Source: Citrobacter sp. FP75
GTDB taxonomy: Bacteria; Pseudomonadota; Gammaproteobacteria; Enterobacterales; Enterobacteriaceae
DNA length: 64,000 nucleotides
Assembly (NCBI RefSeq): GCF_018342065.1
Contig: NZ_JAFDOE010000002.1
Location: 186,001 to 250,000 of the forward strand
Reading direction: 5' to 3'
The notes beneath the pieces are model-generated. The model did no database searches. It had not been told where the DNA came from and worked only from the letters and a program-made list of their open reading frames with translations. The first letter of the stretch is position 1; each line of letters opens with the position of its first letter. Both the position numbers and the translations under genes were made by a program. Positions 30,875 through 53,135 of this stretch are shown here, piece after piece.

Positions 30875-30876
30875 TC

Positions 30877-31443
30877 CTAATTAAATGCCATGGTTAACGT
30901 AGCCAGCGAACTGATGGTGCTGCCGTTGACAAAGTCAGTACCGTCGGTCATTTGCACCAGTTCAGCTTCCAGCGTCGGCTGCTTACGCAGGTCAACGCCA
31001 AACCAGGTATTCACATCCTGCGCGACACCATCCACCAGCAGTTTTATCGCCAGAGAGGTGCTTTGTTTGCTGGTGGCATCAATGATTACCGGTAGCAGAG
31101 TATTCCCCTGCCAGGAAACGCTGGTTCCGTTGGTCGAACTTAAATTCAGCTGCGGGTTACCGGCTGAATCACCGAGACAGGTTAATTTCCCCACCAGCGG
31201 TTTTTTGAGCGATGTTGAGACCAGGGTGTTATTCCCGGTCAGGCTGGAATACAGCAAATCGTTATATTCAACCAGCAGCGTTCCGCCCTGGTCAAAGGTA
31301 CATTGCCCGGTCACTGTCACTATGCCGGAGATATTGACTTTCATTTTGAATTGATCGCCTGGCTTTCGTAAGCCGGCATAAGTGACGCCTGTCAGCAATA
31401 AGCACAACAGTGTACATAGCCATTTTGAAATAGTATTGTTCAT
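30877..31443 (-). CDS. Fimbrial minor subunit
   Basis: A 188-residue pilin-like protein with a signal peptide (ISKWLCTLLCLLLTGVTYAG), a Cys pair (TGQCTFDQGG, GKLTCLGDS) and a C-terminal donor-type strand (ISSLATLTMAFN). It lies between the adhesin (29 bp upstream) and the last subunit (2 bp downstream), suggesting that the three are cotranscribed. Likely a tip adaptor of a Pap-like fimbria. Confidence 0.75.
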   Translation of the reverse strand: MNNTISKWLCTLLCLLLTGVTYAGLRKPGDQFKMKVNISGIVTVTGQCTFDQGGTLLVEYNDLLYSSLTGNNTLVSTSLKKPLVGKLTCLGDSAGNPQLNLSSTNGTSVSWQGNTLLPVIIDATSKQSTSLAIKLLVDGVAQDVNTWFGVDLRKQPTLEAELVQMTDGTDFVNGSTISSLATLTMAFN

Positions 31444-31472
31444 TTTGAACTATCTCTCACAAACTCTATATA

Positions 31473-32591: not shown

Positions 32592-32625
32592 AAAGAGATG
32601 GATAATTTATCTTATTCATCTCTTT
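32592..32625 (-). terminator. Terminator after the LuxR-type gene
   Basis: Read on the minus strand, AAAGAGATGAATAA pairs with TTATCCATCTCTTT (one mismatch) and the stem runs into a T-tract. It lies 43 bp after the regulator's stop and should separate the glycan cassette from the adhesin genes. Confidence 0.7.
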
Positions 32626-32667: not shown

Positions 32668-33441
32668 TTACTGTGCCATTTTATTGTCCATACCAATGCC
32701 TAATAATACGTCCGTCACCGCAAGGGTCGCTTCGGGAGATGCTGCGTTAATCGTCGCCAGCGCAATCAGTTCATCCATTATTTGATACAGCGAATGCATA
32801 TCCGCGCTGTGCGAGATGCCTAATCTGCGTAGGGCCTGATAATGGTGCGAACGTACCGTCTGTGGTTGCATGTGCAGCTGGGTAGCAATTTCTTTAAAAC
32901 TATAACCTTTAGCAAGCAACTGAATAATATTACGCTGGCGAAAGGTTAGAATTTCCAGATGGTGTTCACGCTCAGGGTCAATTCTGTGATTCTGTGAAGC
33001 TTGCTGCTTATCCCCGGTAATCTCGCTAAAAATTTGTCTCAGTAAGCAGCGAAGATGGGGAATGGGCATTCGTGGGTCCCATAACTGCACCTGCGGGTAA
33101 TCCATGGAAAACCATTGATAAACACCTCGTAACCGGTCAGACAGGATAATCTGTGGGATATGCGGCCAACGTGAAGCGATCAGCAAGATACTGCGCAGTG
33201 TTCCGGTGAGAGCGGTGCCATCGTGAAGCTGATAAATGACCGCCCCTGTCTGTGATGAACATGTTTGCGTCACGCTGAGGGGCGTGCTTACGACGAGGGG
33301 AGAAATCCCAATGCTATCTTCTTCTTGTAGCAGTGTTAATAATCCCTGCTTGCCATAAGGATCTGGGGCCAGAATTATTACGTCTTTTTTCTGTTTAGCA
33401 AAAGATGAGTCAAAAGCCATTGTTTGAATATTATTCGGCAT
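32668..33441 (-). CDS. LuxR-type DNA-binding regulator of the fimbria-glycan locus
   Basis: A 257-residue protein with a C-terminal LuxR/FixJ helix-turn-helix (LTFRQRNIIQLLAKGYSFKE, then IATQLHMQPQTVRSHHYQAL). The N-terminal 150 residues do not show the conserved phosphorylation pattern of a response regulator with confidence. AAGGA precedes the ATG. It is the last gene of the glycan cassette, so it may autoregulate the locus or control the adhesin unit just downstream. Target sites are unknown. Confidence 0.82.
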   Translation of the reverse strand: MPNNIQTMAFDSSFAKQKKDVIILAPDPYGKQGLLTLLQEEDSIGISPLVVSTPLSVTQTCSSQTGAVIYQLHDGTALTGTLRSILLIASRWPHIPQIILSDRLRGVYQWFSMDYPQVQLWDPRMPIPHLRCLLRQIFSEITGDKQQASQNHRIDPEREHHLEILTFRQRNIIQLLAKGYSFKEIATQLHMQPQTVRSHHYQALRRLGISHSADMHSLYQIMDELIALATINAASPEATLAVTDVLLGIGMDNKMAQ

Positions 33442-33775
33442 AATTCCTTGCCTCCTGAAAAACTATATAAATAAAGAGCATGAATGCAGTAACCATAAGT
33501 TGATGCCAGCCGATAAACTGGATCAACAGGAGGTGGGAATTCCGATAATTAGTATTTTTTGTTCCCCGTAGTGTAAATATACGTACCTGCATTCGTAGTT
33601 GTGCCATTTCGGTGGAAAAAAACATGATGGCAACATCAGTGTTTGCATTGAACAATAATTCTGTAACCAAGAACCTCCTTTTATTATAAGAGAAATGTAA
33701 GCAGGGCCAGATAAACGGTACGGAAATTGCTCCCGCGTGATGCAGATATCCGGTGTTCCCTGTTGTCAGTTTCAT
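33431..33775 (-). CDS. Possible small protein of unknown function
   Basis: A 114-codon frame fills the otherwise empty gap between the 156-residue unknown protein (6 bp upstream) and the LuxR-type gene (11-bp overlap). The product would be basic with one hydrophobic segment near the C-terminus (LMVTAFMLFIYIVF). There is no ribosome-binding site before the ATG, and rare AGG codons occur in tandem. It may be the regulator's leader region rather than a gene. Confidence 0.3.
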   Translation of the reverse strand: MKLTTGNTGYLHHAGAISVPFIWPCLHFSYNKRRFLVTELLFNANTDVAIMFFSTEMAQLRMQVRIFTLRGTKNTNYRNSHLLLIQFIGWHQLMVTAFMLFIYIVFQEARNYAE

Positions 33776-33781
33776 GGTGTT

Positions 33782-34252
33782 TTACTGACTGGCCCCTGCA
33801 AGCGGTAATGGATTTCCCCAGGTCAAATCCAACTCTTCGGCCCAACCATTCAATAAAGCCTGATTCCAGGCATCGTGGAGGGTTAACGGCCCATTTTGCG
33901 GGTTATGTGAACGAATAGCTTCTTCAGTGCAGTAAATAAATTGTGAAATCGTGGGGAAATAAAGCATCCCGAGGTCGGGTGAGGACAGACTGGCCCAGAT
34001 TTGATGTGACGAAAAAAAAGGCAAACTGATTTCCTGGCTACCATTCCACAGTAATATTGCCGTTTCCGTAGGAAAATTAGCGCAGGCAAACAACCCTTTA
34101 CAGAGTGGAGAAAGCTCCCCTGGAGGAAGATGAATAACCTTTTCAAGTGGGGTTGCGGCTGTATCTTCTGCGGGTTTGCACCAGACATTGGTCCAACCGC
34201 TATATTGGCGTAGGGGAGGCGACGGCATCACCGCTAACAGAACAGGCTTCAT
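33782..34252 (-). CDS. Unknown protein of the glycan cassette (156 aa)
   Basis: I do not recognise this 156-residue protein (start MKPVLLAVMPSPPLRQYSGW, end LTWGNPLPLAGASQ). It has no signal peptide or clear membrane segment, and is rich in Pro, Trp and Cys. Its ATG overlaps the stop of the HAD phosphatase gene in an ATGA arrangement, so it is translationally coupled and very probably expressed. Coupling suggests a role in the same saccharide pathway, perhaps as a transferase or accessory factor; this is inference. Confidence 0.7.
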   Translation of the reverse strand: MKPVLLAVMPSPPLRQYSGWTNVWCKPAEDTAATPLEKVIHLPPGELSPLCKGLFACANFPTETAILLWNGSQEISLPFFSSHQIWASLSSPDLGMLYFPTISQFIYCTEEAIRSHNPQNGPLTLHDAWNQALLNGWAEELDLTWGNPLPLAGASQ

Positions 34253-34884
34253 GACGGGGTCTCGCACTGAATAATAAATTGCTGGATGCGTTCCCAGCAC
34301 ACTTCGGAAGGATCGGCGACTTGTAAAACATGCGCGCCGGCAGCGTGTGCTGCAGCAATACCGTGCGGATTGTCTTCAACAATGATGCATTCAGCGGGAG
34401 TTAATTCCAGTTTACTGATGGCTTTAAGATAAATCTCGGGATCGGGTTTTCCGCGCAAAACATCCTCGTTTGAAAGAAAGAAATCGAGGTAACGTAATAA
34501 TTGCGCTCGGTCAAGCATCGTTTCTACACTTTGACGAATTGAATTGGATGCAACAGCCAGGTGATAACCTTTGTTTTTCAACATTGCCAACGCATATTGG
34601 TGCTGAAATGTTGGCCAGCAGTGCTGATAAATATGCTGCATGGTGTATCTCTGCTTCATTTCATTAATAAAACTATGTAATGAAGCCGGGAGTCCGTATC
34701 GCTCCCGAAGAATATTAAGTTTATCACGAGTTGGTAAACCATCGAATTCTAACAGGTGTGAATCGCGGTCTATCTTTAAGCCAAATAATTCAAGTATTTG
34801 ATTTAAAGCATGGTAATGCCACTCTCTGGCATCAATTAATACGCCATCCATGTCGAAAATAATTCCACGAATGCGAGTGGTCAT
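34249..34884 (-). CDS. HAD-superfamily phosphatase/phosphomutase
   Basis: A 211-residue HAD hydrolase of the beta-phosphoglucomutase/phosphoglycolate phosphatase type. Motif I is FDMDGVLID at residues 10-18. A helical cap follows, then motif II (ASNS) and motif III with GKPDPEIYLKA, and motif IV VEDNPHGIAAAHAAGA. In a glycan cluster such an enzyme usually dephosphorylates or isomerises a sugar or polyol phosphate precursor. It overlaps the gene before and the gene after by 4 bp each. Confidence 0.85.
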   Translation of the reverse strand: MTTRIRGIIFDMDGVLIDAREWHYHALNQILELFGLKIDRDSHLLEFDGLPTRDKLNILRERYGLPASLHSFINEMKQRYTMQHIYQHCWPTFQHQYALAMLKNKGYHLAVASNSIRQSVETMLDRAQLLRYLDFFLSNEDVLRGKPDPEIYLKAISKLELTPAECIIVEDNPHGIAAAHAAGAHVLQVADPSEVCWERIQQFIIQCETPS

Positions 34885-35507
34885 GACATCATCTCGTGAA
34901 TTTTGTGCGGGTAATCAGTACAAAGCATAACATTCCCGCTTGTTATTCCTGGTAAGGCTAATAGTTTTTTCCAGATGCTGTTAGGGCTTCTGCCATGAAG
35001 CTCGGGAGAAACTACGCAGATTTTTTTATTCTCTGCTAACCAGCGTGAAAAAGCGTTTTCATCAATGGATAAATCATGGAAGCCATCGACCCAGAGCACA
35101 GGAGAGACATTGCTCAACACGCCTTCCGGTTCATACTCACTCAGCCTTGCGGCGACGGGCATGCCGTTAAGAATGTAGGAAAACATATCGGGGACTGACA
35201 TATCAAAACAGAAATAATTCGTAATTCGCCGCTCAATGAGTAAATGCTTAAGCAGTAGCGCAATGCCGTCGGATTTGATGTTCAGAGCCAGCGTGGAAGT
35301 GGCCCCAAGCTCGATGTAATCATCTAAAAAATCAGTAACAGGCAGCGCGCCAGCCATGGGCATATCGTGACTGATGACCAGTTCACCGTTTAAATCCCGG
35401 ATGTCAGTTTCGATTCCTAATCCTGATATTAATGCCTTGCGTAGCGCTTCCCGGGAATTTTGAGCATCATGGGATTGCCAGATCCCACGGTGTGCAATAA
35501 TTTCCAT
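34881..35507 (-). CDS. Glycerophosphodiester phosphodiesterase-like protein
   Basis: A 208-residue protein with the GDPD signature at its N-terminus: AHRGIW (residues 5-10), GIETDIRDLNG and VISHDMP. These give the family's His, Glu-x-Asp and His-Asp catalytic residues. It has no signal peptide, so it should act in the cytoplasm. Family members split glycerophosphodiesters or related substrates. It is shorter than typical GlpQ/UgpQ (about 250). Its position next to the HAD gene hints at a glycerol-phosphate or phosphodiester step in glycan precursor synthesis. Confidence 0.75.
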   Translation of the reverse strand: MEIIAHRGIWQSHDAQNSREALRKALISGLGIETDIRDLNGELVISHDMPMAGALPVTDFLDDYIELGATSTLALNIKSDGIALLLKHLLIERRITNYFCFDMSVPDMFSYILNGMPVAARLSEYEPEGVLSNVSPVLWVDGFHDLSIDENAFSRWLAENKKICVVSPELHGRSPNSIWKKLLALPGITSGNVMLCTDYPHKIHEMMS

Positions 35508-35509
35508 TT

Positions 35510-36232
35510 TTATTCCTCTGTTAAAAGGTTGTAATGTTCAATAGCCTGGTGTATTTCGCCATCAAAATGGACATGACCCTGAGTCAGTACGAGCCCACGA
35601 TCGCAGGTGGCTAATAATTGCTGGCAATCATGGCTGACCAGCACCAGCGTGCCGCCCCGCTGTTTGAAATCCGCTATTTTCGCCAGACATTTCGCCTGAA
35701 ACGTCTGATCGCCAACGACCAGCGCTTCGTCAATCACTAAAATATCGCTGGGTAAATGGATACCTAATGAAAAGGCCAGACGTAAAAACATGCCTGATGA
35801 ATAGGTCCGCACGGGTTTATCGAGATGCGCTTCCAGCTCTGAGAAAGTGACAATCTCCTCCAGGTGTTGGCGCATCTGGCGTGAGGACATCCCGAGGATT
35901 GCACTTGCCAGAGAGATATTCTCCCAACCGCTAAGGTCATGATGAAAACCCGCGCCGACTTCCAATAAAGAGGACATTGACCCGTTCACGCGAATTTTTC
36001 CCGACGTGGGCCTCGTGACTCTGGTTAACAGTTTTAATAGCGTAGATTTACCTGCGCCATTGTGTCCGATGACCCCTAAAGCCTCGCCTGCGGGCAATGA
36101 AAAGGAGACATCATTGAGCGAGATAAACGGCTGTGCCCGTGGAGGACGACGAAAACGCAGGGCGGTTCTCAGGGTGTTGCCGGAGAGGTTTTGTCCGGGA
36201 TAGCTTTTGGTTACGTGCTCAAAGGTAATCAT
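35510..36232 (-). CDS. Wzt-type polysaccharide ABC transporter ATPase
   Basis: A 240-residue ATPase with Walker A GHNGAGKST, a signature motif read as RTYSSGMFLRLAFS and Walker B DILVIDEALVVGD. This matches the Wzt/KpsT/RfbE group that powers export of lipid-linked or lipid-anchored glycans across the inner membrane. It lacks the C-terminal carbohydrate-binding extension of long Wzt proteins, so it should not read a modified chain end. Its ATG overlaps the permease stop by 4 bp. Confidence 0.9.
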   Translation of the reverse strand: MITFEHVTKSYPGQNLSGNTLRTALRFRRPPRAQPFISLNDVSFSLPAGEALGVIGHNGAGKSTLLKLLTRVTRPTSGKIRVNGSMSSLLEVGAGFHHDLSGWENISLASAILGMSSRQMRQHLEEIVTFSELEAHLDKPVRTYSSGMFLRLAFSLGIHLPSDILVIDEALVVGDQTFQAKCLAKIADFKQRGGTLVLVSHDCQQLLATCDRGLVLTQGHVHFDGEIHQAIEHYNLLTEE

Positions 36233-37047
36233 TGTTGGTCAGCCACCGCTGATTCAAAGCGAACAAAACAGACATACCCTGCCGCTGCGATGATAAGGCT
36301 GATTCCGGCAGAGCTAAAAAGCGCCAGCGCTGAGGGCGCAGTTCCACCCAGCAGCAGATAACGAAATGCGCCGACGATGCCATAGAGAGGGTTGCATGCC
36401 ATAAGCCATTTCCAGCGTTCAGGCAGTAATCCCGGCGTCCAGACGACAGGCGTCGCGTAGAACCATCCCTGAACAATCAGTGGCGTCAGATGGCGAAAGT
36501 CGCGAAAACGTACCCTTGCCAGTGCGATGATGCAGCCTGTCCCCCAGGCGACGAGTGCCGCAAAAAGGCCGCAGACCAGTAGCAGCGGCAGGTGAGCCAG
36601 CGGGAAATAAACCCCTCCGAGAGGAAGCAGCAAACACAGGCAAATAAGGGCCAGCAGGAAGTCCATTAAGCTGGTGGCAAGACTCGCCAGCGTTAAACTG
36701 ATACGCGGAAAATAGATTTTTTTGATCAAATGCAAGTTGTTGAGCAGCGTTTCACCCACCGTATTCAGCGTGCTGGAAAATAGCATCCATATCACCAGTC
36801 CACTCAGTAACACCCATGTATAAGGCACTGTGTAGTCGGGTGGGGTAAGTCGGGCAATAAGACCAAATACGGTGTAATACATTCCCAGTTGTATTAATGG
36901 GTTGAAGACCGCCCACAGCCATCCCAGCCACGTCTGGCGGTAGCGAATAGTCAAATCGCGCTGCACAAGGCTTGCGATCAGATATCGGGTTTGCCACAGT
37001 TCCCTCAATGTTGATGTGCTGTGCGGCAAAGAAATAAAACCACGCAT
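36229..37047 (-). CDS. Wzm-type polysaccharide ABC transporter permease
   Basis: A 272-residue ABC-2 permease with about six transmembrane segments. The N-terminal amphipathic segment LVQRDLTIRYRQTWLGWLWAV is typical of Wzm/KpsM/RfbD. With the adjacent ATPase it forms an inner-membrane exporter for a lipid-linked glycan. Lying in the same cluster as a PglL-type transferase, it is the natural candidate flippase for the donor saccharide. It starts 10 bp after the WavE-like gene. Confidence 0.9.
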   Translation of the reverse strand: MRGFISLPHSTSTLRELWQTRYLIASLVQRDLTIRYRQTWLGWLWAVFNPLIQLGMYYTVFGLIARLTPPDYTVPYTWVLLSGLVIWMLFSSTLNTVGETLLNNLHLIKKIYFPRISLTLASLATSLMDFLLALICLCLLLPLGGVYFPLAHLPLLLVCGLFAALVAWGTGCIIALARVRFRDFRHLTPLIVQGWFYATPVVWTPGLLPERWKWLMACNPLYGIVGAFRYLLLGGTAPSALALFSSAGISLIIAAAGYVCFVRFESAVADQQ

Positions 37048-37057
37048 TTCTGGTTCC

Positions 37058-38071
37058 TTAACGACGATATGAAAACAGATTAATCACCAGATTGCGGATA
37101 GAGGGGCGGCGCAACAGCCTGTGTCGCAGGCAATAACCTGTTTTCCATAGCATGGTAAAGACCTTATCCAGGTATCCGATTACGCCTGGGTTTTTGGGCT
37201 GGCCCTGATAGCGCCAGTACAATTGAAACCAGCGTCGTTGGGTATACACGCTAAATAAACCGCGGAGAGGATACCGCTGCCAGTATTTTGGCCAGCGTAG
37301 CCCAAGCTGGCGAAACGAATACGGCAGGAAATTGGCCAAATAATATTGTTCAGATAGCGCCACCAGTTCTGCGGAACGATGCGTGTTGCCTGCGAAAGCG
37401 CATTGCCCATGCTGCTGAATAATGGCGTTTACCCAAAAATATTGTTCTGCGACGAAGCGCCAGGCACACCATATTCCAGGGATGGCACAAGGTGAAAAGA
37501 GATCTTCTGTCGCGGGAGGCGCCGCAAAATAGGCGCGGACGTCCTCGGTTCTTCCCGCTAATAAGATATCGCCAGGATGAAACAGGTAAGGCAAACTGCC
37601 GCGCGCGTCGCGGGCAAAGAAATTCGCGTTAATCACCCGCGATCGAAAAACCGTGAAGCGTTCATCACGGTTCAGGGCATCACTGTGCTGGACGTGGCGC
37701 TTCAACATTCCAATCAGGCGACGGGAGTAGAGCCAGGTGTCGGTACGTAATTTTATGGCGTAAGGTCTGCTGGCCTTCGCCAGACCCTGTGAGGCAGATA
37801 CTCTGAGGCGATTTACATTGATCAGATGCTCATAGCCCTCATGCTGTACGCGCAAAGGACCGGGATCGTCACTCAGAACCAATTGCCCCTGAATTTCCGC
37901 CAGGTGTTCCTGAAGTTGGCGATCGCTCTCGGGGGAGTCGTACCAGGTAGAGACAATCAATTCTGCTTTTGGAAACAGGGTGCGTGTACGTTTTATACAT
38001 TTCCAGGCATCAGCTGAAATAATACCGGACTCCCTGGTGGGGCCCTGGAATATAATACTTAATGAATCCAT
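37058..38071 (-). CDS. WavE-family glycosyltransferase
   Basis: A 337-residue protein that fits the WavE lipopolysaccharide-synthesis family. The N-terminus carries the family's IIFQGPTRESG motif, and KLRTDTWLYSRR gives a DxD-like acidic site (R-T-D). The C-terminal 100 residues are basic and aromatic-rich, as in membrane-associated transferases. It is the only obvious glycosyltransferase in the cassette, so the saccharide may be short or may borrow a precursor from another pathway. Donor and acceptor are unknown. Confidence 0.78.
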   Translation of the reverse strand: MDSLSIIFQGPTRESGIISADAWKCIKRTRTLFPKAELIVSTWYDSPESDRQLQEHLAEIQGQLVLSDDPGPLRVQHEGYEHLINVNRLRVSASQGLAKASRPYAIKLRTDTWLYSRRLIGMLKRHVQHSDALNRDERFTVFRSRVINANFFARDARGSLPYLFHPGDILLAGRTEDVRAYFAAPPATEDLFSPCAIPGIWCAWRFVAEQYFWVNAIIQQHGQCAFAGNTHRSAELVALSEQYYLANFLPYSFRQLGLRWPKYWQRYPLRGLFSVYTQRRWFQLYWRYQGQPKNPGVIGYLDKVFTMLWKTGYCLRHRLLRRPSIRNLVINLFSYRR

Positions 38072-38131
38072 CTTAAACCTTACCTTGTCGCCATCATGTA
38101 ATGGAAACTTGCGATGTTGTTGGATAACTGT

Positions 38132-38269
38132 TTATTTAATGCGCTTTATTATTGTGTCTGCGCTATTTGATGGATCGGCATAAACAATCTTTTCCTCATA
38201 GGGCGAGCAGGATGGATTCTTAAATAGTGGGTGGAGTACGCTGTGATGTTTGCGGGCAACGATGTTCAT
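38132..38269 (-). CDS. Small 45-residue protein overlapping the nucleotidyltransferase stop
   Basis: A 45-codon frame (start MNIVARKHHSVLHPLF, end ADTIIKRIK) whose ATG overlaps the nucleotidyltransferase stop as ATGA. It fills most of the 194-bp gap before the WavE-like gene. The same kind of overlap links other genes of this cassette, which supports translation. I do not recognise it; it could also be the remnant of a longer gene. Confidence 0.45.
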   Translation of the reverse strand: MNIVARKHHSVLHPLFKNPSCSPYEEKIVYADPSNSADTIIKRIK

Positions 38270-39036
38270 GCCGCGGCCTCAGCTTTCGTCAAGGCAAGGT
38301 TTAAATAAGGAGAATCCAGAAACGCAGAGAGATCCGCTGGGGTTCCCAAACCGTGCATTTCGATTCCGGGACGGCCAATATTATAAACACCGATACGCTT
38401 CAGACCAGACTGATACATTTCAGTATAAACGGGCGCAACATAAAATTCACCGCAACTGCGGTCATCCTGAGCAATCATTTTATTTGCCAGACGGCAAAAG
38501 TCACTGCCGCGACGATAATTATAAATACCTACTGTGGCTTCATTCGAAACGACTTCTTTCTCAATGACTTTACGCACCCATCCTTGTTCGTCAAATAACG
38601 CGTAGGACCATTTTTCATCAGACGCTTCCATAGTCATCATCATTCCATCTAATTGAGAGCTGTCCATGGCGCTTAAATACGCGTCGATATCAATGTTTAT
38701 CCATTGATCGGCATTGGCAATCATAAGAGGAGTGTCGTTATCTATCCAGCGGGAGGCGGCTAGGACAGAGCAGGCTGCACCAGATGTGACACCAGGCAAA
38801 CCGATTATTTTGCAGTCAGGCGATAATTCATACAGTCGGGAAGCAACATCATACTTCTCAAGATGAGCTTGCTGGCAAACAAAAATAAATCGATGAGGAC
38901 AGGATGGGCGGAGATTATTAACGACTAACTCGATCATGGGAATACCTGAGATCGAAATTAAAGGTTTAGGTGTTGTAAATCCGGCCTGTACAAATCGGTT
39001 GCCATTGCCTGCCATTGGGATAACGATGTTTAGCAT
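38266..39036 (-). CDS. Sugar-phosphate nucleotidyltransferase
   Basis: A 256-residue NTP-transferase-family enzyme. The N-terminal signature is PMAGNGNRFVQAGFTTPKPL, matching the G-x-G-x-R-F...P-K-P nucleotide-binding loop, and LMIANADQWINID is the metal-binding acidic region. It should activate a sugar (or polyol) phosphate to a nucleotide sugar for the WavE-like transferase. The sugar and base cannot be predicted. It begins 4 bp after the cupin gene. Confidence 0.85.
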   Translation of the reverse strand: MLNIVIPMAGNGNRFVQAGFTTPKPLISISGIPMIELVVNNLRPSCPHRFIFVCQQAHLEKYDVASRLYELSPDCKIIGLPGVTSGAACSVLAASRWIDNDTPLMIANADQWINIDIDAYLSAMDSSQLDGMMMTMEASDEKWSYALFDEQGWVRKVIEKEVVSNEATVGIYNYRRGSDFCRLANKMIAQDDRSCGEFYVAPVYTEMYQSGLKRIGVYNIGRPGIEMHGLGTPADLSAFLDSPYLNLALTKAEAAA

Positions 39037-39040
39037 AAAA

Positions 39041-39418
39041 TTATACCACTTGAGGAGTGTCAGAATATTTATCCCCTTGAACGGCAGGGGTTTTTACGAC
39101 GACCGTAATACAGTTTTCCACTGCTTCGAATCGAGATGAAATACACGGTTCCAGCGTAATAATGTCACCAGAAGTTAACACTTCTCCGGCCATAATGGCT
39201 TTGCCACTGAGAAGTAATGTGACTTCAGTTGCCAGTTTATGGTGGTGTAGTTCGCCAATATACCCTGCGGGAAATTGTTGCACGGCAACTTCAACGTCCG
39301 CTGTTTTATATGCGGCTGGATTAAAATTACCGACAAACCATCCGCGGGTCATCTCGCCGAGTCTATTTATTGTTATACCTGTTGTCTTATTGTTATTATT
39401 GTTGGGCATGAGTTTCAC
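39041..39418 (-). CDS. Small cupin protein
   Basis: A 125-residue single cupin domain with a metal-binding pattern: GELHHHKLATEVTLLLSGKA (His-x-His and Glu) and a second-motif region around EPCISSRF. Such proteins serve as sugar epimerases, isomerases or sensors. The N-terminus has a run of five asparagines encoded by a short AAT/AAC repeat, so a start at the later methionine (MPNNNNN) is also possible. The 5' end overlaps the oligosaccharyltransferase gene by 23 bp. Confidence 0.75.
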   Translation of the reverse strand: MKLMPNNNNNKTTGITINRLGEMTRGWFVGNFNPAAYKTADVEVAVQQFPAGYIGELHHHKLATEVTLLLSGKAIMAGEVLTSGDIITLEPCISSRFEAVENCITVVVKTPAVQGDKYSDTPQVV

Positions 39419-41186
39419 CGGGCAAAGAGCTAATGTTAAGTAGTGAGCAAGAAAAACGCGGATCGCGCGGAAAACTTAAACATCCACGGGTTTTCCAGTA
39501 TTTAATTTTTACTGTATTACGTTCAATTTTGTTGATTTGAATCATAGTGGCGATAAGGTTGGCATCGTTATGACGGGTAAGCCATTCTCCGGCCTGTGAT
39601 TGAAATAAGGTTAGCCAACTGTAATCGTGCGTGCGGTTAAATTGCATAAGATCGTTGACTGCGTAGTCAAATAACAATCTGTCAGCTTGCGCCGTTGTAT
39701 TAACAATGCGCTCAAGGGGGGCAGGATCCTCGAGGTTAAATTCTTCAGCGCTGCGTAGATAAAATGCAGAATGCATCCCACTGAGGGTATACAGCACGCC
39801 CAGCCCACCGGCAAAAAACAAGGCAGGGTAGAGCGCTCTGGCACAGGGCAGCGCATGTCGCGAAAAAGGCTGACGATAACGGGAGGGAAATGCAAGCCAT
39901 AACAGGATGAGCAAGGTGATGCTATGGACCGCGCTGAGATACAGTGGATACTCGCTCATGACATGCGCCATGAGCGGTGCGATAAGCGAAGCTCGCATCA
40001 TCCGCTGGCGGTTTAACGGCGTGAATTTTACCGGGCAAAACGGGGTTAACCCTACAGCAAACCACAACAGTAGCCCCGTCAGAGCAACAATGCCGCCCTC
40101 GGCCCACACATACAGAATTTCGTTATGTGGGTGCGTGACCGTGACGGTGAAGGGGTTGGGCTGCTGATGCTCAAAAAGCGTTTGCGGAAATATCCGCTCA
40201 AATGAACCTAAACCTGAACCCAGCAACGGTGAGGTCTGGATCATTTCTGCAGAGCCTTTCAGCATGGTGATACGGTCTGTATTTGAGTGCTGTTTATTCC
40301 ATTTCAGTCGGGCTTCAGTGTCTTGCGGGCGTTCATCGTACTGTGCGGCGATGGCACCGGGCGCGGTTTGTAGTGTTTCCGATCGCAATGACAGTCCGGC
40401 ATGACCCAGCATAACTCCTAACAGAATCGAGCCAATAACGCACAGACGAATACGCAGCCTGACCGGGGTGAGGATCAGCAGCATGACCACTCCCACGCCA
40501 GCCCCCAGAAACGCACTGCGCGATTCTGTCATCGTCAGCCCGGCGCTAAGCACCAGGGAAACCAGCAGGAAATTCAGCGTCTGCTTGCTTGTCATAGTGA
40601 GTTGGATGGCAGCGAGCAAGGTGGTTGCTAAAAATGATCCCAGCAAGTTTACTTGCCAAAATGTGCCGACCGGACGGCCCTGGTAGAGGGTGAAATCATA
40701 ATGAAGCCAGCTACCTGCACTATCTGGTAGCACAATTTGCAGTGTGGCAATCACCGTTTGCAGGAGTCCGGCGATACATAACACAAGGTAGAATCGTTGC
40801 CGCCACATGGCAGAGGCGGGAAGCTGGAGCAGGAGAAAGAAAAATCCTGCAAGCGACCATAGGCCAGCCAAACGAGGTATCGCATTGCTCACAAAATCTG
40901 CATCAGTCCATAAGATGGGCAAGCTCATCAGGATGGTGCCTACGAGCAGGAAGCGACCTGTCCTTCCTGCTCTGAGTTTTCGACGTATGAGTACGAATGT
41001 CAGCGCCAGCGCCAGTAACGAGCACCACAGCCAGGCCAGCAGGTTCAATGTACTGTTCAGACCCTCACCGGGTAATGTTGACCATGGCCAGGTAAGAATA
41101 GGGATATACAGTAATGCGCAGGCGCACGTGCCCCACAATACTAGCGGAGACGTCGTTTTGGCAGGCTGCGGAGAGACCTTCATCAT
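39396..41186 (-). CDS. PglL-type protein O-oligosaccharyltransferase (Wzy_C family)
   Basis: A 596-residue polytopic membrane protein with about 12 hydrophobic segments. It shows the marks of the WaaL/PglL ligase superfamily: GRPVGTFWQVNLLGSFLA (residues 170-187), TESRSAF (220-226), and a large periplasmic loop with THPHNEILYVWAEGG (351-365) containing the presumed catalytic His. AHVMSEYPLYLSAVHS (407-422) resembles the Wzy_C_2 motif typical of PglL protein glycosylases rather than O-antigen ligases. A C-terminal soluble tail of about 120 residues follows. It should move a glycan from undecaprenyl diphosphate to Ser/Thr of an exported protein. It overlaps the preceding 86-residue gene by 4 bp. 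An O-antigen ligase or polymerase role is the alternative. Confidence 0.8.
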   Translation of the reverse strand: MMKVSPQPAKTTSPLVLWGTCACALLYIPILTWPWSTLPGEGLNSTLNLLAWLWCSLLALALTFVLIRRKLRAGRTGRFLLVGTILMSLPILWTDADFVSNAIPRLAGLWSLAGFFFLLLQLPASAMWRQRFYLVLCIAGLLQTVIATLQIVLPDSAGSWLHYDFTLYQGRPVGTFWQVNLLGSFLATTLLAAIQLTMTSKQTLNFLLVSLVLSAGLTMTESRSAFLGAGVGVVMLLILTPVRLRIRLCVIGSILLGVMLGHAGLSLRSETLQTAPGAIAAQYDERPQDTEARLKWNKQHSNTDRITMLKGSAEMIQTSPLLGSGLGSFERIFPQTLFEHQQPNPFTVTVTHPHNEILYVWAEGGIVALTGLLLWFAVGLTPFCPVKFTPLNRQRMMRASLIAPLMAHVMSEYPLYLSAVHSITLLILLWLAFPSRYRQPFSRHALPCARALYPALFFAGGLGVLYTLSGMHSAFYLRSAEEFNLEDPAPLERIVNTTAQADRLLFDYAVNDLMQFNRTHDYSWLTLFQSQAGEWLTRHNDANLIATMIQINKIERNTVKIKYWKTRGCLSFPRDPRFSCSLLNISSLPGETHAQQ

Positions 41187-41443
41187 AGGGAATATTTCCG
41201 GTTATAGATGTCCAGGCGGCCGGTAGCAGCAACGTCATGCAGGTACAGCGCGATATCATCTAACAACTCAGCAGTTTCTGGCTCACGCTGGCGGAGAATA
41301 GTGGCCTGGTTTGCGGCTCTGAGTTCCAGTTGCAGAAGACCCCCGCCATAATTAATAACGGCATTCTCCAGAAGCTGGAGCCGGCGTATTTCATTACTTG
41401 CGCAGATGTTTTTTAACTCTCGTTTATTTTTATTAAAAAGCAT
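41183..41443 (-). CDS. Unknown 86-residue protein before the oligosaccharyltransferase
   Basis: A small soluble protein (start MLFNKNKRELKNICASNEIR, end LDIYNRKYSL), mostly helical in composition, with no signal peptide. I do not recognise it. Its stop overlaps the oligosaccharyltransferase start (ATGATG context), showing translational coupling, and it is 34 bp after the last chaperone-proximal pilin gene. It marks the junction from fimbrial to glycan genes. It may be an accessory factor of the membrane enzyme; this is inference. Confidence 0.65.
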   Translation of the reverse strand: MLFNKNKRELKNICASNEIRRLQLLENAVINYGGGLLQLELRAANQATILRQREPETAELLDDIALYLHDVAATGRLDIYNRKYSL

Positions 41444-41477
41444 AATGATGGAGGAATTTAAAGTGAGTGTGTTGGAT

Positions 41478-42014
41478 TTATGGGTAAATCAATTCAAATG
41501 TTGTTGTCGCGATAAACGGGCCAGTGACAATGGTTTGATTTTTAATAGCATCGGGTTCACCTATGACGTAACCCTGGAATGTCAGCGTGGTGACACCACT
41601 GGTTAGTGGTTGCGCAGATGTTTGCTTATCTAAGAGAACCGGCGTGCCGTCAGTTAATTCAATACCGACAGCGATGCCGTGAATATCACCGTCATCGGGC
41701 GCTAATAACCCAGGCATAACACTCTGGTTTCCTGTGAATTTAACCATCACATCCTGACCAATAGCTAAATCGCAATCAATAAGTACGATCTTAAACTCCC
41801 GGCTAAGGGTGCGGGTATTGCGGTAAAAGTATTTGCTGACTAAATCACCAAAATCTAGTGGAACGTTAGTACTATTCGGATCCAGTGAACAAGGTAAATT
41901 AACCAGTGTGCCATCAATGGTGACATTATCCACGGCCTGAGCGGGATACCCTATTACCAATAAAGAGGTAAAAAATAGTGAGCTAAAACACTTTAATAAT
42001 GTCATTTCTTTCAC
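41478..42014 (-). CDS. Fimbrial minor subunit
   Basis: A 178-residue pilin-like protein with a signal peptide (SSLFFTSLLVIGYPAQA), a Cys pair (NLPCSLDP and IDCDLA) and a C-terminal strand (IATTTFELIYP). It resembles PapK/PapE-type tip subunits in size and layout. It begins 6 bp after the preceding pilin gene and is followed by the glycan cassette. Confidence 0.8.
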   Translation of the reverse strand: MKEMTLLKCFSSLFFTSLLVIGYPAQAVDNVTIDGTLVNLPCSLDPNSTNVPLDFGDLVSKYFYRNTRTLSREFKIVLIDCDLAIGQDVMVKFTGNQSVMPGLLAPDDGDIHGIAVGIELTDGTPVLLDKQTSAQPLTSGVTTLTFQGYVIGEPDAIKNQTIVTGPFIATTTFELIYP

Positions 42015-42020
42015 CGATTT

Positions 42021-42626
42021 TTAGTCATAGTTTAAGGCGAAATTCACTGTCGCATGATAAAAGCCAGGCGTGAGTGGCCTGTTGGTTCTTTCCGGAACCA
42101 CATAATAGGTAATATCATTATCACCGGGCGTTAAAAATTGTGGCTCGCTACGGTCGCCAAGACGAATATCACGATACTGGCTATCAACAATTCTCAGTCC
42201 GATGCCGGAGACGCCATTTACATCCACAAGCTGTGGGTTTTCTGCATTTGCTACGGCAAAAAATGATGCCGTCAATATTGGCTGAATTGATGAATAGAGC
42301 TGCTTGCTGGTGCGTCGATCTCGTGAAGCACTTTGCACTCTGATGCAATCGCGCAGCGTCAGCTTCATGGCAATAGGTTTGCCACGATCGCCGACGTGAA
42401 GCAGAGATTGCGTTGAAGTACTTCCCAACTCAATTGTTTGCCGTGTTGATGCCATATCCAGATTACATGGGCCTTCTGGCAGGCTGCCGTGCACGTGAAT
42501 GGTGCCGTTCTCACCTTCAACATCCCAGTTATCTGGCTGCGCGTGTATCTCGAACGCAGCCAGCATCAACAGAGATGGCAGCAGGAAAAGGACAGAGGCA
42601 TTTTTTACTTGTCGATATGTTGTCAT
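42021..42626 (-). CDS. Fimbrial minor subunit
   Basis: A 201-residue pilin-like protein if translation begins at MTTYRQVKNASVLFLLP, which gives a proper signal peptide and has AGAGA upstream. A GTG codon at 42659, overlapping the chaperone stop, is an alternative start and would couple translation. The Cys pair (GPCNLDM, LRDCIRV) and C-terminal strand (ATVNFALNYD) are typical. It is probably a PapJ/MrpE-like or tip subunit. Confidence 0.78.
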   Translation of the reverse strand: MTTYRQVKNASVLFLLPSLLMLAAFEIHAQPDNWDVEGENGTIHVHGSLPEGPCNLDMASTRQTIELGSTSTQSLLHVGDRGKPIAMKLTLRDCIRVQSASRDRRTSKQLYSSIQPILTASFFAVANAENPQLVDVNGVSGIGLRIVDSQYRDIRLGDRSEPQFLTPGDNDITYYVVPERTNRPLTPGFYHATVNFALNYD

Positions 42627-42655
42627 TATTGTCTCTGGCAACTGCCGTATCTCCA

Positions 42656-43408
42656 TCACACTTTGGTTTCTTTCACGCTACAGGTATCTCCTGCGCAACC
42701 AAAAATTAAGCGCGGACGACCACCGTAATCATTCAGATAGGTTAATACCGGCGCATTGCCAATCTCACCTGGACCCACTTTAAGAGAGGCGCTGCTTTTA
42801 GGCGCAATCATTAAGGGTTCAAAATCCTTTGATGGGTTACCTTTTAAGGAAGATGCGGCCGCAGAAATCGTGATGTAATACGGCGTTGGATTGTTAGCAA
42901 TATACTCATTCCCTTTTTTATTCAAGGTTAGCAATTCTTGCCACGGTTTACCGTAAGGATCGACCACCAATGATTGCGGGCGATAAAACAACTTTATCTT
43001 CGTCTGCAAAGCTATTTGCAGCGTATTTGGCTTATCACTTTTGGGCGGGATTTCACGCACGTTGAAATAATATACGCTTTCTTTGTCCTGAGATAAAAGA
43101 TTGATCCCATTTGTGGCCTGGATTTTTATCTGGCTCTTTGCACCCGGTTCAATACGTTGTACAGGAGGAACGGCGGTCATGGGAGTGGTGATTTTATTTC
43201 CCTGTGCGTCTTCAATCCACGTCTGTGCTAAATAAGGCAATTCTTTATTTTGGTTAGTGACGGATAAGCTGACTGAGTTTTTGTCTCCATTCATGATAAC
43301 GCGTGTACGATCGACGCCTAATGCAGCAGAAGCATTCTGTGCAAACAGCACCGAACTCGTGATAAACAGCAACACGCCGGGTTTTATCGCATTACGTAAT
43401 AGACGCAT
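42656..43408 (-). CDS. Periplasmic fimbrial chaperone (PapD-like)
   Basis: A 250-residue PapD-family chaperone with a signal peptide (PGVLLFITSSVLFAQNASA). The G1-strand and signature region ESVYYFNVREIPP and the conserved TKIKLFYRP are present, including the Lys that anchors subunit C-termini. It completes pilin folding by donor-strand complementation and hands subunits to the usher encoded just upstream (95 bp away). Confidence 0.93.
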   Translation of the reverse strand: MRLLRNAIKPGVLLFITSSVLFAQNASAALGVDRTRVIMNGDKNSVSLSVTNQNKELPYLAQTWIEDAQGNKITTPMTAVPPVQRIEPGAKSQIKIQATNGINLLSQDKESVYYFNVREIPPKSDKPNTLQIALQTKIKLFYRPQSLVVDPYGKPWQELLTLNKKGNEYIANNPTPYYITISAAASSLKGNPSKDFEPLMIAPKSSASLKVGPGEIGNAPVLTYLNDYGGRPRLIFGCAGDTCSVKETKV

Positions 43409-43503
43409 GTTAATACTCTCAATGATAGATAATGACTAATGAATGATTGTTCTGCTGTTCTTTATTTGCATAAAAACAGCATGGGTAAATTTTTTTATAT
43501 GGC

Positions 43504-46050
43504 TTATTCACATGGCAGCAGTAACGTTGATTCGTCCATATTGCCTGGTAATACCGTCGGCAAAGTAATGGTGCACTGTTTTTCACCGTCCCAGTTGACG
43601 CTCATTTTTATACCGGGTTCTATACCAGATAACCAAACGCTGCCTTCTTCGCTCACCAGACCTGTTTGCACACTATCTTCATTGAGCACGGTTGAACCAA
43701 AAGGTGGCGCTGAACCATCAGCCATTTTGATCACCGCCATCGCTTTTTGCCCGGCAAGAATGCCGAATTTCCGGTAGCCAATCGCGCCTTCGGTTAGTGT
43801 GCCCTCGACCACTGAACGTGTCGCTTCGACATTGTTACCGAGATTATCCAGATCGATGGAGATGTCACTTCGGTAGTAACTACTCACATCGCTGACAACG
43901 GCTTTACCAAACATATTGGAGCTTGAAATTCCGCTATAGCCTCTGACAGGAACATCTGCTACGCCACCGGTATCAACCAGCATTCGCGTACCGCCCGTCG
44001 AATTGACCCGGTGTACTGCTGCGCCCTTTGTCGTGGCGGTCATGCCGCCGCGCATAGAGAAGCCGAGGGCGCTATATTGACTACCCTGCACGTTGGCTGT
44101 GGCGGTCAGTTCTGTGTTGTCACCCTGATGGGTTAAATACGCCCCAGCAGATTCGCCACCGGTGCTATTCATGCCTGCCGTCAATCGGTACGTATTATTT
44201 TCATTGATGCTATTGTAATAACCTACCGTATGGCTCTGGTTTTTCTTGTTAATTTGCGTGTCGTAGCTTAAGGAACCTCCCCCCCAAGGGAGTGAAAATC
44301 CCAGGTAAAAACCGTCCTCGTTTTTGCCGTCGTATTTCGTCCGGTAAGCTGTCGCGGTGACGCTCACGTTGCGAAGTTCACCCAAATCAAAGTTATGTGC
44401 AATGTTCAGAGTATAGGTATCGTTTGTGGGGCGATTCCAATAGGTCTGGTGGTTATAAGTCAAATACGCGGTTGTACGCAGAGCCTCGAATTGTTGGTTG
44501 AATGTCAGCGTGTATAACTCTTTGCCGCTGCCAATACCTGAGCCGTCTTTATTGTATTGTTGCGCGTCGAGGTACTGCGACATCGTCATAAAATCGCGTT
44601 CAGAGAATCGATACCCAGCGAACGTGACCTGGCTGTTGGTTTCGTCAAAGCGTTTTGAATAGCTCAGGCGATAAGACCCGCCTTTTTTGGTCGTCTCGTC
44701 TGACAGCACCGCCCTGGATTGCGTAACATCTACTGACACAGCCCCCAGAGCCAGAAGATCTCGGCCTACACCTGCTGCAATCGCAGTGTAATCGCCGGAA
44801 CTTAGCGCGCCGCTATACAGCGACCAACCGTTGTCGATCCCCCAGGAAAACTCACCCGTGACAAAGGTTTCGTGGCGAGCATGGTGGTCGTAATCTGAAG
44901 GTTGACCTGCGGCTAATTTAAAACGAACCATGCCTGGGCGCGTCAGATAAGGGATGTTGGCTGTATCAAGCTGGAATGTTTGAACTGAGCCATCCTGCTC
45001 CTGTACTTTTACATCCAGCTTACCGCTGACGGCATTGTTTAAGTCCTGAATTCGAAAAGGACCGGCGGCAACCGTGGTTTCGTACAGGACTCTTCCCTGT
45101 TGGCTGATGGTGACTTTGGCGTTTGTTTTGGCAATACCTGTGACTTCCGGTGCATAACCGCGCAGATTAGGCGGCAACATATTGTCGTCGGAAACCAGGC
45201 TACCACCGACATAGCGGAAACTATCAAACATTCCGGTATCCAGATAGTTCTCACCCAGCGTTAATCGGGAACGCAACGCATTGATAGAACGATAGATATA
45301 ATATCGGTTCCAGTCCCAGTTTTTTTGCTGTTCGGATTCCCCACCCGCCAGACGCTGATATTGCGCCTGCCAGTCGGCACGTAACCGCCATGCCCCCAGA
45401 TTCATCCCCGCCACCCCAGTACCTGAAACAGACTTTGAATCTGCTCCTTTCTCGGCGTTTTGCTTCACGACCTGGCTATTAAGGTTATAGTCGAACATTA
45501 CTCCAGGAATGCCGTCATCCCAGCGAGAGGGGGGATCCCAGTTTTCCGCGGTATATTCTAAATAGGCCTGCGGCAGATTAATGTATAATGTGCTGGCACT
45601 GAGGTCGCCGCGTATTACCATCCCTTTCAGGTCTGCTTCATTCAGACACTGCCCGTTATTCCACCAGGTAAGTGATTTTTCGATGTCCTCTTTTAACCCT
45701 AGCTGGGAGACAATTTCTGGAGTTAAGCAGGCGACGCTCTCTTTAGGGTCATTATCAGGGGCTAAAAAAACAACCTTTTTATCCTGCAGGGTGCTTTTGT
45801 TAATCTTTATCGCCAGTGAATACTCGCCTGGCATAATGTAACCCGCCCGAGAGAACTGCTCTAAGTTAATATTCTTACGGTCTTCAACATCCATAATGTC
45901 GGTGTTAAATTCAATGGGCGTCTCTTTCGCATTGACGGCATGAGGTAAACTTCCCATGCCGAGAGCAAACAATATTCCCAAGGCGACAGGGCGTAAACGA
46001 CACCCTGATGTAATCTTGTGACCAAGAATCTGGTTATTGAGCTGCAACAT
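43504..46050 (-). CDS. Fimbrial outer-membrane usher (PapC-like)
   Basis: An 848-residue usher. After the signal peptide comes the N-terminal chaperone-binding domain (IEFNTDIMDVEDRKNINLEQ). The 24-strand barrel follows, with the family signature FRIQDLNNAVSGKLDVKV. The plug domain and C-terminal domains come next (CTITLPTVLPGNMDESTLLLPCE at the end, split here by Cys residues as in PapC). It secretes and assembles the pilins of this locus. GGGGGAAAGG precedes the ATG. Confidence 0.94.
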   Translation of the reverse strand: MLQLNNQILGHKITSGCRLRPVALGILFALGMGSLPHAVNAKETPIEFNTDIMDVEDRKNINLEQFSRAGYIMPGEYSLAIKINKSTLQDKKVVFLAPDNDPKESVACLTPEIVSQLGLKEDIEKSLTWWNNGQCLNEADLKGMVIRGDLSASTLYINLPQAYLEYTAENWDPPSRWDDGIPGVMFDYNLNSQVVKQNAEKGADSKSVSGTGVAGMNLGAWRLRADWQAQYQRLAGGESEQQKNWDWNRYYIYRSINALRSRLTLGENYLDTGMFDSFRYVGGSLVSDDNMLPPNLRGYAPEVTGIAKTNAKVTISQQGRVLYETTVAAGPFRIQDLNNAVSGKLDVKVQEQDGSVQTFQLDTANIPYLTRPGMVRFKLAAGQPSDYDHHARHETFVTGEFSWGIDNGWSLYSGALSSGDYTAIAAGVGRDLLALGAVSVDVTQSRAVLSDETTKKGGSYRLSYSKRFDETNSQVTFAGYRFSERDFMTMSQYLDAQQYNKDGSGIGSGKELYTLTFNQQFEALRTTAYLTYNHQTYWNRPTNDTYTLNIAHNFDLGELRNVSVTATAYRTKYDGKNEDGFYLGFSLPWGGGSLSYDTQINKKNQSHTVGYYNSINENNTYRLTAGMNSTGGESAGAYLTHQGDNTELTATANVQGSQYSALGFSMRGGMTATTKGAAVHRVNSTGGTRMLVDTGGVADVPVRGYSGISSSNMFGKAVVSDVSSYYRSDISIDLDNLGNNVEATRSVVEGTLTEGAIGYRKFGILAGQKAMAVIKMADGSAPPFGSTVLNEDSVQTGLVSEEGSVWLSGIEPGIKMSVNWDGEKQCTITLPTVLPGNMDESTLLLPCE

Positions 46051-46070
46051 CCTTTCCCCCGGTCAATCAC

Positions 46071-46598
46071 TCAGAAATAATCAATCTTGAATCTAATAAA
46101 CGCATCATATTCACCGGCTTCAAGACGGGATTTATCGCCTACTAAACGAAGTTTGTAGCCAAGCAGCATGCTTCCGGCTTTTAATGACTGTGGTTGCATG
46201 GCTTGTCCAGGGATAGCGACAATGCCTTCTTTATCAGATATTTTTAGCCCGATCCCTTTCGCGCCGCCGTTGACACTGAACAGCCCATCCCCAGTGGTGG
46301 GGCCATCAAACGTAATACGAAACGAGCTCCAGTCTGGGCGGGGCTGGAGGTCGGGTGTTAACGAACAGTTCGAGAGCTTTATATTGAAAGGGATAGCAAA
46401 ACTTTCACTATCACGGATCATTGTGCCAATGGAGATGGCTTCTATTTCAATCAGCTGGCGCTGGCTGCCTACGTCAATAGCACAGGCGGCATCCATAATA
46501 CTTCCTTGCATATTAAGTCTACCTCGCCCTTGATCGTCAGCAGATACGGCCCGATAACTCATGAGCAGCAGCATTAATATGCAAAGATAATCTTTCAT
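46071..46598 (-). CDS. Fimbrial subunit, PapH-like position
   Basis: A 175-residue pilin-like protein with a signal peptide (YLCILMLLLMSYRAVSA), a Cys pair (DAACAIDV, LSNCSLT) and a C-terminal strand (YDAFIRFKIDYF). It sits between the major pilin and the usher, as papH does in the pap operon, where the product anchors the finished pilus. The assignment rests on position and subunit type. Confidence 0.8.
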   Translation of the reverse strand: MKDYLCILMLLLMSYRAVSADDQGRGRLNMQGSIMDAACAIDVGSQRQLIEIEAISIGTMIRDSESFAIPFNIKLSNCSLTPDLQPRPDWSSFRITFDGPTTGDGLFSVNGGAKGIGLKISDKEGIVAIPGQAMQPQSLKAGSMLLGYKLRLVGDKSRLEAGEYDAFIRFKIDYF

Positions 46599-46657
46599 TG
46601 ATTGCTCCGTTTAAGGTAAATATAAAGCGCCCTCCTTTAGAAGAGCGCTTTTATTAT

Positions 46658-47203
46658 TTACTTATAATCCATTACGAAGTTTGCAACGGACTGGAATGCA
46701 CCGACCACGATATTACTGTTCGTTGAACCCTGTACGAATGCTTTAAACTCCAGCAGGTTGTCGCCAACCGCCAGTTTCATTTCTTTAGATGGGGTATTCG
46801 GTATTACTGCATTACCACCGATATCCATGATACCGATAGCCGCGCCGCTACCGACACCGGTAATCGCCATGGCTTTATCCAGGCCATCAGTCGCAGAACC
46901 CGCGATACCGTTGAAAGAGACAGTAGCCGCACCATTGTTCAGGTTTGCTGGATCACAGTCATGCAGTTGGATGCTGAAATCAACAGGCGTAGATTTGCCG
47001 CCAGCTTCAAGCTGATGTTTTGCAATGGCACCCATTTGAATTGTCTGATAGATACTTTTGGCATCAATTGAACACGCTGCTTCAATGATGGTGCCTTCAA
47101 AGGTAATTTTACCCTGACCCTGGCTAGTTGCTGCATTTGCAGCGCCTGCAGCCATTGCTGATGCCATAGCTACCGCCAATGCGATCTTCTTAAGATTCAT
47201 CAT
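46658..47203 (-). CDS. Fimbrial major subunit
   Basis: A 181-residue major pilin: signal peptide (IALAVAMASAMAAGAANA), small mature domain rich in Ala, Gly and Ser, Cys pair (EAACSIDAK, HDCDPANL) and the canonical C-terminal strand (QSVANFVMDYK). It is the first gene of the minus-strand fimbrial operon, preceded by an AT-rich region. If the PglL-like enzyme glycosylates pilins, this abundant Ser/Thr-containing subunit is the first candidate. Translation could begin at either of two adjacent ATG codons. Confidence 0.88.
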   Translation of the reverse strand: MMNLKKIALAVAMASAMAAGAANAATSQGQGKITFEGTIIEAACSIDAKSIYQTIQMGAIAKHQLEAGGKSTPVDFSIQLHDCDPANLNNGAATVSFNGIAGSATDGLDKAMAITGVGSGAAIGIMDIGGNAVIPNTPSKEMKLAVGDNLLEFKAFVQGSTNSNIVVGAFQSVANFVMDYK

Positions 47204-49618: not shown

Positions 49619-49711
49619 TATTGCGTCTGGCCGTATTGTTTAACTGAACGCTACGGACAATAGACCAGATGTTTATTGTCCGTAACTATTTTATTCGTTA
49701 TGAAAGAAATC

Positions 49712-50455: not shown

Positions 50456-50483
50456 TAAATTAATTAGATTAAATGGACATTCT

Positions 50484-53132: not shown

Positions 53133-53135
53133 TCC

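Follow-up and report, generated by a model that had tools for sequence, protein, structure and literature searches.

The DNA analysed in this study (the window) was a stretch of 64,000 nucleotides from Citrobacter sp. FP75 (contig NZ_JAFDOE010000002.1, positions 186,001 to 250,000). On its minus strand lies a chaperone-usher fimbrial operon that continues into a gene for a PglL-like membrane ligase and a cassette of glycan genes. Chaperone-usher fimbriae are common attachment fibres of enteric bacteria, and PglL-type protein O-glycosylation is established in type IV pili and in periplasmic proteins more generally. The genes are listed below in their 5' to 3' order, with lengths in amino acids (aa) and E values after the Pfam families or Protein Data Bank (PDB) entries matched.

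46658..47203, minus strand: major pilin (pilA), 181 aa; PF00419 3.6e-14, above cut-off
46071..46598, minus strand: PapH-like subunit, 175 aa, between pilin and usher; PF00419 2.9e-5, slightly below cut-off
43504..46050, minus strand: outer-membrane usher, 848 aa; PF00577; at most 65% identity to the Buttiauxella usher
42656..43408, minus strand: periplasmic chaperone, 250 aa; 54% identity to the open reading frame (ORF) at the annotated fimbrial chaperone in L050
42021..42659, minus strand: minor pilin pilD, 212 aa; PF00419 4.3e-11
41478..42014, minus strand: minor pilin pilE, 178 aa; PF00419 1.1e-11
41183..41443, minus strand: u86, 86 aa; 4-bp overlap with the ligase gene; no Pfam match
39396..41186, minus strand: PglL-like membrane ligase, 596 aa; Wzy_C and Wzy_C_2
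39041..39418, minus strand: cupin-like protein, 125 aa; 50.5% identity to an annotated cupin-domain protein; no Pfam match
38266..39036, minus strand: sugar-phosphate nucleotidyltransferase (ntp), 256 aa; PF00483 (NTP_transferase) 1.5e-9; PDB 4evw 7e-17
38132..38269, minus strand: 45-aa ORF, probable remnant; start position and some N-terminal likeness to the relatives' 569-577 aa gene
37058..38071, minus strand: WavE-type glycosyltransferase, 337 aa; PF07507 3.4e-33
36229..37047, minus strand: Wzm-type permease, 272 aa; PF01061 (ABC2_membrane) 1.1e-15
35510..36232, minus strand: Wzt-type ATPase, 240 aa; PF00005 (ABC_tran) 7.2e-20; Walker A motif; without extra C-terminal domain
34881..35507, minus strand: GDPD-fold phosphodiesterase, 208 aa; model with predicted local distance difference test score (pLDDT) 84 matches 3qvq, E 6.6e-8, template modelling (TM) score 0.73
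34249..34884, minus strand: HAD phosphatase/mutase, 211 aa; PF13419 (HAD_2) 7.7e-38; PDB 3kbb 2e-23
33782..34252, minus strand: 156-aa protein (u156); homologues of 138-188 aa, 30-36% identity, last in four related cassettes
32668..33441, minus strand: LuxR-type regulator, 257 aa; GerE 7.8e-11
31473..32462, minus strand: probable tip adhesin, 329 aa; PF00419 8e-4 in the C-terminal half, below cut-off
30877..31443, minus strand: minor pilin pilF, 188 aa; no Pfam match; its homologues at fimbrial loci are pilin-like
30356..30874, minus strand: minor pilin pilG, 172 aa; PF00419 2.2e-8

All genes named in an earlier reading of this DNA (the original prediction) were found as open frames on the minus strand, and Pfam supported most of their labels. 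Its Pap-like chaperone-usher operon was confirmed by PF00577 in the usher (window 43765-45414; G000:C12:229765-231414), PF00419 in the pilins, and a chaperone recognised by identity to an annotated one rather than by the Pfam scan. Usher, chaperone, and several pilins lie on one strand, as in Pap/MR-P-like fimbriae. PF00419 was above its cut-off in 4 of the 7 subunits, below it in 2 (PapH-like and adhesin), and without a match in pilF. The labels cupin and phosphodiesterase held in part: neither protein had a Pfam match even at E 5, but the former has its annotated relative at 50.5% identity and the latter its GDPD-fold model match. The phosphodiesterase, whose model resembles glycerophosphodiester phosphodiesterases, also carries HRG and E-T-D motifs. 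Wzm and Wzt adjoin a glycosyltransferase, and PF01061, PF00005, and PF07507 were above their cut-offs, which is the gene content of ATP-binding cassette (ABC) transporter-dependent glycan export; a galactan-export permease model matched the Wzm-type permease below its cut-off.

The gap after pilE is 34 bp, as predicted. Overlaps of 4-23 bp, said to run through the cassette, were observed at 6 of the 10 junctions from u86 to the 156-aa gene (five of 4 bp and one of 23 bp), but the other four are gaps of 2, 4, 10, and 60 bp, with the 156-aa gene starting at 34252. The adhesin and two pilins expected downstream are present, but at 30356-32462, outside the interval 32668..47203 assigned to the locus. 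Because luxR is separated from the adhesin gene by 205 bp that include a 14-pair hairpin (32592-32625), adhesin-pilF-pilG may form a separate transcript. Promoter-like sites numbered 38 against 33.2 (standard deviation 6.3) in shuffles and terminator-like sites 27 against 19.7 (standard deviation 4.0), and no operon claim is built on these counts. A further ORF (114 aa), located between luxR and the gene for the 156-aa protein, was without a Pfam match and is possibly not a gene.

The ligase matched Wzy_C (9.9e-23, 81 bits, cut-off 31.7) and Wzy_C_2 (2.2e-9, 38 bits, cut-off 28.5). It was named PglL-like because PF15864 (PglL_A), matched in 29 of 32 aligned relatives, had no match in it at E up to 1. 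According to the available text of PMC3643930, residues Q178, N180, G316, G318, H400, E404, and P406 of NmPglL are conserved in PglL and not in WaaL; by spacing, with NmPglL itself outside the alignment, these residues are present in the window ligase as Q178, N180, G323, G325, H408, E412, and P414. No structure match was obtained with Foldseek alone at E up to 0.001, and no match in a PDB sequence search at E up to 1; a second aligner matched residues 12-438 to the fold of WaaL (7tpg), the closest solved fold. The ligase shares with WaaL this fold and the positions of the catalytic R and H, and differs from it by an extra C-terminal domain, the PglL-type residues, and the fimbrial location.

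A second Wzy_C gene (427 aa, WaaL-like) was found in the same genome between ORFs that read as heptosyltransferase-like and glycosyltransferase-like, and its product is without most PglL-type residues and without the C-terminal part. That the window ligase is the lipopolysaccharide (LPS) ligase of this genome was rejected, since it sits in a fimbrial operon and a separate WaaL-like gene is present. Transfer of a glycan to protein would fit with this fold, with the PglL-type residues and the additional C-terminal domain of the window ligase, and with the existence of a separate WaaL-like gene.

The original prediction had proposed a search for co-occurrence of this type of ligase with ushers across genomes, and such co-occurrence was found. 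The window ligase matched 13 of 72,556 plasmid records; among the 12 counted (H12 was left out), 9 were inside or adjoining a chaperone-usher operon, 2 had fimbrial genes approximately 4-6 kb away, and 1 had none in the stretch. When 84,980 species genomes were searched with a profile, 408 ligase relatives were obtained, and neighbourhoods were counted for the best 80 of the 408. An usher was present at 31 of 36 loci (35 from Enterobacterales in the narrow sense and 1 from Pseudomonas fontis), within 6.8 kb of the ligase gene and in 27 cases on the same strand, in a sample that is biased because fimbria-linked ligases were among the sequences from which the profile was built. Among the remaining five, L076 and L088 show a pilin at the contig start, L084 ends close to the ligase gene, and L086 and L127 show none. 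No usher was found at the other 44 of the 80 loci, from Vibrio, Psychromonas, Colwellia, Photobacterium, Aeromonas, and Oceanisphaera.

When the window protein alone was used for an order-wide search, 15 genomes of the same family were matched. With its own genome and Scandinavium left out, 14 loci from 13 genomes were inspected, of which 10 had an usher and 1 more had pilins at the edge; an usher was found in none of the 6 examined out of 122 matching genomes from other families. With 13 ushers in the 5.09 Mb of its own genome, approximately 6% of loci would be near an usher by chance (the density of one genome), and chance association was rejected on the observed frequency. The ligase gene had no match in 20,395 E. 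coli records in a DNA-level distant search.

Several variations were seen near such ligases. A gene for an EAL-domain protein (L016:8972-9691, PF00563 3.9e-20) comes after the ligase gene in one fimbrial operon of the C. youngae type, and in Serratia plasmids and Hafnia LuxR-type genes lie after or ahead of the ligase gene. Two-piece ligase genes, possibly broken, were present at L058:8974-10400 (Hafnia alvei plasmid) and L204:13352-15079.

The whole arrangement also recurs. Four further loci, from Citrobacter sp. MGH106 (L013 = L063), Lelliottia sp. V86_10 (L064), Buttiauxella sp. B2 (L065), and a Scandinavium goeteborgense plasmid (L050, flanked by insertion sequence (IS) IS3 genes), carry on one strand fimbrial genes, a ligase 43-46% identical to that of the window, and then the cassette. 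Because these four share the gene order, the pairing of fimbria and cassette is more than chance. Their cassettes run in the order cupin, ntp, a 569-577 aa gene, a 155-176 aa gene, wavE, wzm, wzt, phosphodiesterase, HAD, and u156 homologue, with enzymes 44-72% identical to those of the window and u156 30-36%. The adhesin-type gene lies ahead of the ligase gene in the four relatives and after the cassette in the window. Homologues of u86 lie directly ahead of the ligase gene in Buttiauxella L065 and Pantoea L070, where adhesin homologues adjoin both genes, and a pilE homologue occupies that position in many relatives. The Lelliottia operon holds two consecutive ligases of different clades (L064:8198-11674), the second ahead of the glycan cassette.

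Many fimbrial operons have the ligase and no cassette. One is on a P. agglomerans plasmid, with a ligase of the same clade and an IS6 gene after it. In P. agglomerans HJS002, the adhesin, u86, and ligase genes are followed by a different cassette, encoding GT4, Wzm, Wzt, UDP-galactopyranose mutase, GT2, and a DUF4422-GT8 protein, which are the gene types of galactan I. Galactan-I-type clusters have the Wzm, Wzt, Glf, and DUF4422-GT8 types in common with this cassette but make O-antigen, whereas the Pantoea genes come after a PglL-like ligase in a fimbrial operon. In Pantoea, the cassette is thus an exchanged one.

In the window, only 195 bp separate ntp from wavE, where the four related cassettes have the 569-577 aa and 155-176 aa genes. 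The 45-aa ORF has the same start as the large gene and a faint likeness to its first residues (approximately 40 residues compared; weak). The original prediction had listed it as an ORF of the cassette without noticing this likeness; it is indeed an open frame but is probably a remnant of the large gene. The large gene, with no Pfam match for the Citrobacter version, may on reading alone be transferase-like. Because it is probably reduced to a remnant here, the glycan of the window strain is likely simpler than that of the relatives, or the cassette is decaying. Phages also have homologues of the cassette nucleotidyltransferase (approximately 44% identity); they were seen in 19 records, of which 18 bear the name Synechococcus phage (e.g., KU686205.1:150336-151043).

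A quick tree of 90 ligases was built without bootstrap, including 27 of 44 named Vibrio-type loci, L148, L152, six controls, and others; L013, L145, L155, and ligases shorter than 480 aa were left out. The cassette-type ligases and the P. agglomerans plasmid ligase formed a clade (Shimodaira-Hasegawa-like approximate likelihood ratio test (SH-aLRT) 99), with the Pantoea galactan-cassette ligase as its sister (96), and 30 ligases of Vibrio-type bacteria formed a separate clade (100). The label "fimbria" required 5 changes on the tree compared with 27.9 in shuffles. The deep branching order is unsure because of six long end branches. For a Mantel test, 39 of 49 loci were kept after removal of L013, L145, L155, L152, L086, and then of ushers more than about 80% alike. 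Usher and chaperone distances were correlated with r 0.95 and usher and ligase distances with only 0.50, values that none of 2,000 permutations reached. Ligase and usher histories thus seem to agree in part only. Separate histories, which the original prediction had named as grounds for refutation, are partly true in view of these coefficients and of a glycan module that also occurs without a fimbria.

In the open-access literature (titles and abstract starts), no paper describing a ligase in a chaperone-usher operon was found; subscription papers were mostly outside this scope. In the available text of a 2013 survey (PMC3643930), 21 of 31 PglL-type ligases adjoin type IV pilin genes; neither "fimbri" nor "usher" appears there. 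The enzymes described there share with the window protein the Wzy_C ligase, the PglL-type residues, and a gene beside the presumed pilin target; they differ in adjoining type IV pilin genes, whereas here the neighbours are chaperone-usher operons, some with a glycan cassette, and the window protein is without PF15864. Both words are also absent from the accessible part of a 2025 review of bacterial O-glycoproteomics (PMC12645811), and in that of PMC7611010 "fimbrial" appears once, within a reference. A glycosylated enteric fimbria is not unheard of, because CfaB, the chaperone-usher pilin of CFA/I in enterotoxigenic E. coli, is reported to be O-glycosylated at T74 and T78; the portion of that paper available (PMC5000012) mentions neither a ligase nor a glycan cassette within the operon of this fimbria. 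The EmaA adhesin of Aggregatibacter, as described in the accessible text of PMC10892112, resembles the system proposed for the window in being a surface adhesin modified through a Wzy_C-type ligase (WaaL) and an ABC-type O-polysaccharide pathway, but it is a trimeric autotransporter that uses the LPS ligase without a dedicated operon. The novelty appears to be the dedicated ligase within the fimbrial operon.

These comparisons suggest that fimbriae of this kind may be sugar-coated, and we infer that the locus probably specifies both a chaperone-usher fimbria and an O-glycosylation system dedicated to it. An activated sugar would be made or tailored by four enzymes, namely the nucleotidyltransferase, the HAD protein, the cupin-like protein, and the GDPD-fold enzyme. 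WavE, together with an initiating transferase of the housekeeping kind, presumably one such as WecA, would assemble the lipid-linked glycan at the cytoplasmic face. Wzm/Wzt would flip the glycan to the periplasmic face, where the PglL-like ligase would transfer it to a fimbrial subunit, most likely held by the chaperone, prior to export through the usher. More tentatively, Enterobacterales may possess dedicated ligases for glycan-bearing fimbriae, some operons carrying a whole exchangeable ABC-dependent pathway (WavE-type or galactan-I-like), so that the fimbria would display its own polysaccharide on subunits glycosylated in the periplasm before export. A PglL-like ligase appears here as an accessory that recurs with chaperone-usher fimbriae, in some cases together with a glycan pathway that can be exchanged. 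Should this reading be correct, it would alter the view of how hosts and phages see enteric attachment fibres, raise the question of usher passage for glycosylated subunits, and supply natural ligases paired with ABC-dependent glycans. The pilin or adhesin O-glycosylation originally proposed is thus partly supported, by co-occurrence and by the fold and residues of the ligase, but the histories are only partly shared.

Several observations weigh against a dedicated glycosylation system. No modified protein is known, PF15864 is missing from the window ligase, and the usher would have to pass glycosylated subunits. In a search for Ser/Thr/Ala/Pro-rich stretches, neither the window's seven subunits nor the major pilins at related loci gave a clear acceptor. 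The partial agreement of histories and the bias of the profile-based sample count in the same direction. The ligase, which is an optional accessory, was present at only 12 of 33 nearest usher loci (9 of 30 examined plus its own, Scandinavium G230, and G280; two of the nine ligases are in pieces and some stretches end at contig ends). The glycan module is also present, at L056:3694-17446, in an 18.8-kb P. aeruginosa plasmid stretch that has neither a fimbria nor a recognised ligase, with identities to the window of 44% (wzt), 51% (ntp), 42% (phosphodiesterase), 58% (HAD), 50.5% (cupin), and 27% (WavE); its large gene is 34% identical to that of Buttiauxella, and its wzm is interrupted by IS genes. 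This module, together with the WaaL fold and the missing PF15864, favours a different product, a surface polysaccharide that is free or linked to LPS and shares no more than its regulation with the fimbria; the ligase would then join it to lipid A-core or polymerise it. We regard this as unlikely, given the separate WaaL-like gene with its different residues and C-terminus, the ligases in fimbrial operons that have no cassette, and the presence of PF15864 in most aligned relatives.

It is less likely still that the ligase is a general periplasmic glycosylation enzyme resident in fimbrial operons, with mostly non-fimbrial targets. Neisseria PglL has many targets (PMC3643930, available text) and related ligases lie outside fimbrial loci in Vibrio-type bacteria, but the fimbria-linked ligases are diverse yet confined to fimbrial loci, and one Lelliottia operon holds two. 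Decay of the cassette in the window strain, leaving no complete glycan whatever the relatives do, would be compatible with a dedicated glycosylation system. In favour of decay, the large gene, which all four relatives have kept, is probably reduced to the 45-aa ORF, a point that also weighs against a dedicated glycosylation system, and the 155-176 aa gene is absent; the other cassette genes are open and 43-72% identical to those of the four relatives (u156 30-36%), and the conserved ligase residues are kept. Decay seems improbable.

In one E. coli record, the gene order is rpoD, mug, tRNA-Ile, nfeF, nfeR, aer, ygjG, ygjH, and ebgR, and window homologues of the genes tested keep this order with 73-96% identity. 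Because the tRNA (57473) and nfeF (13675-14577) are neighbours in that record and approximately 43 kb apart in the window, the locus appears, by comparison with this one record, to lie in a tRNA-side insertion. Genes between them include, presumably, some of glycerol-dehydratase type, as well as two chaperone-usher operons. No usher more than 60% identical was found outside its own locus in 149 family genomes, so no close cassette-free fimbria was available for a simple-insertion comparison; the Buttiauxella usher (65% identity) was found by another route. The second chaperone-usher operon (49013-55629, plus strand) encodes pilin, chaperone, usher, and further subunits, without a ligase, and diverges from the first with approximately 1.8 kb between them. 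An inverted repeat (48714-48750; 17 nt, 94%, 3-nt loop) lies between the two operons.

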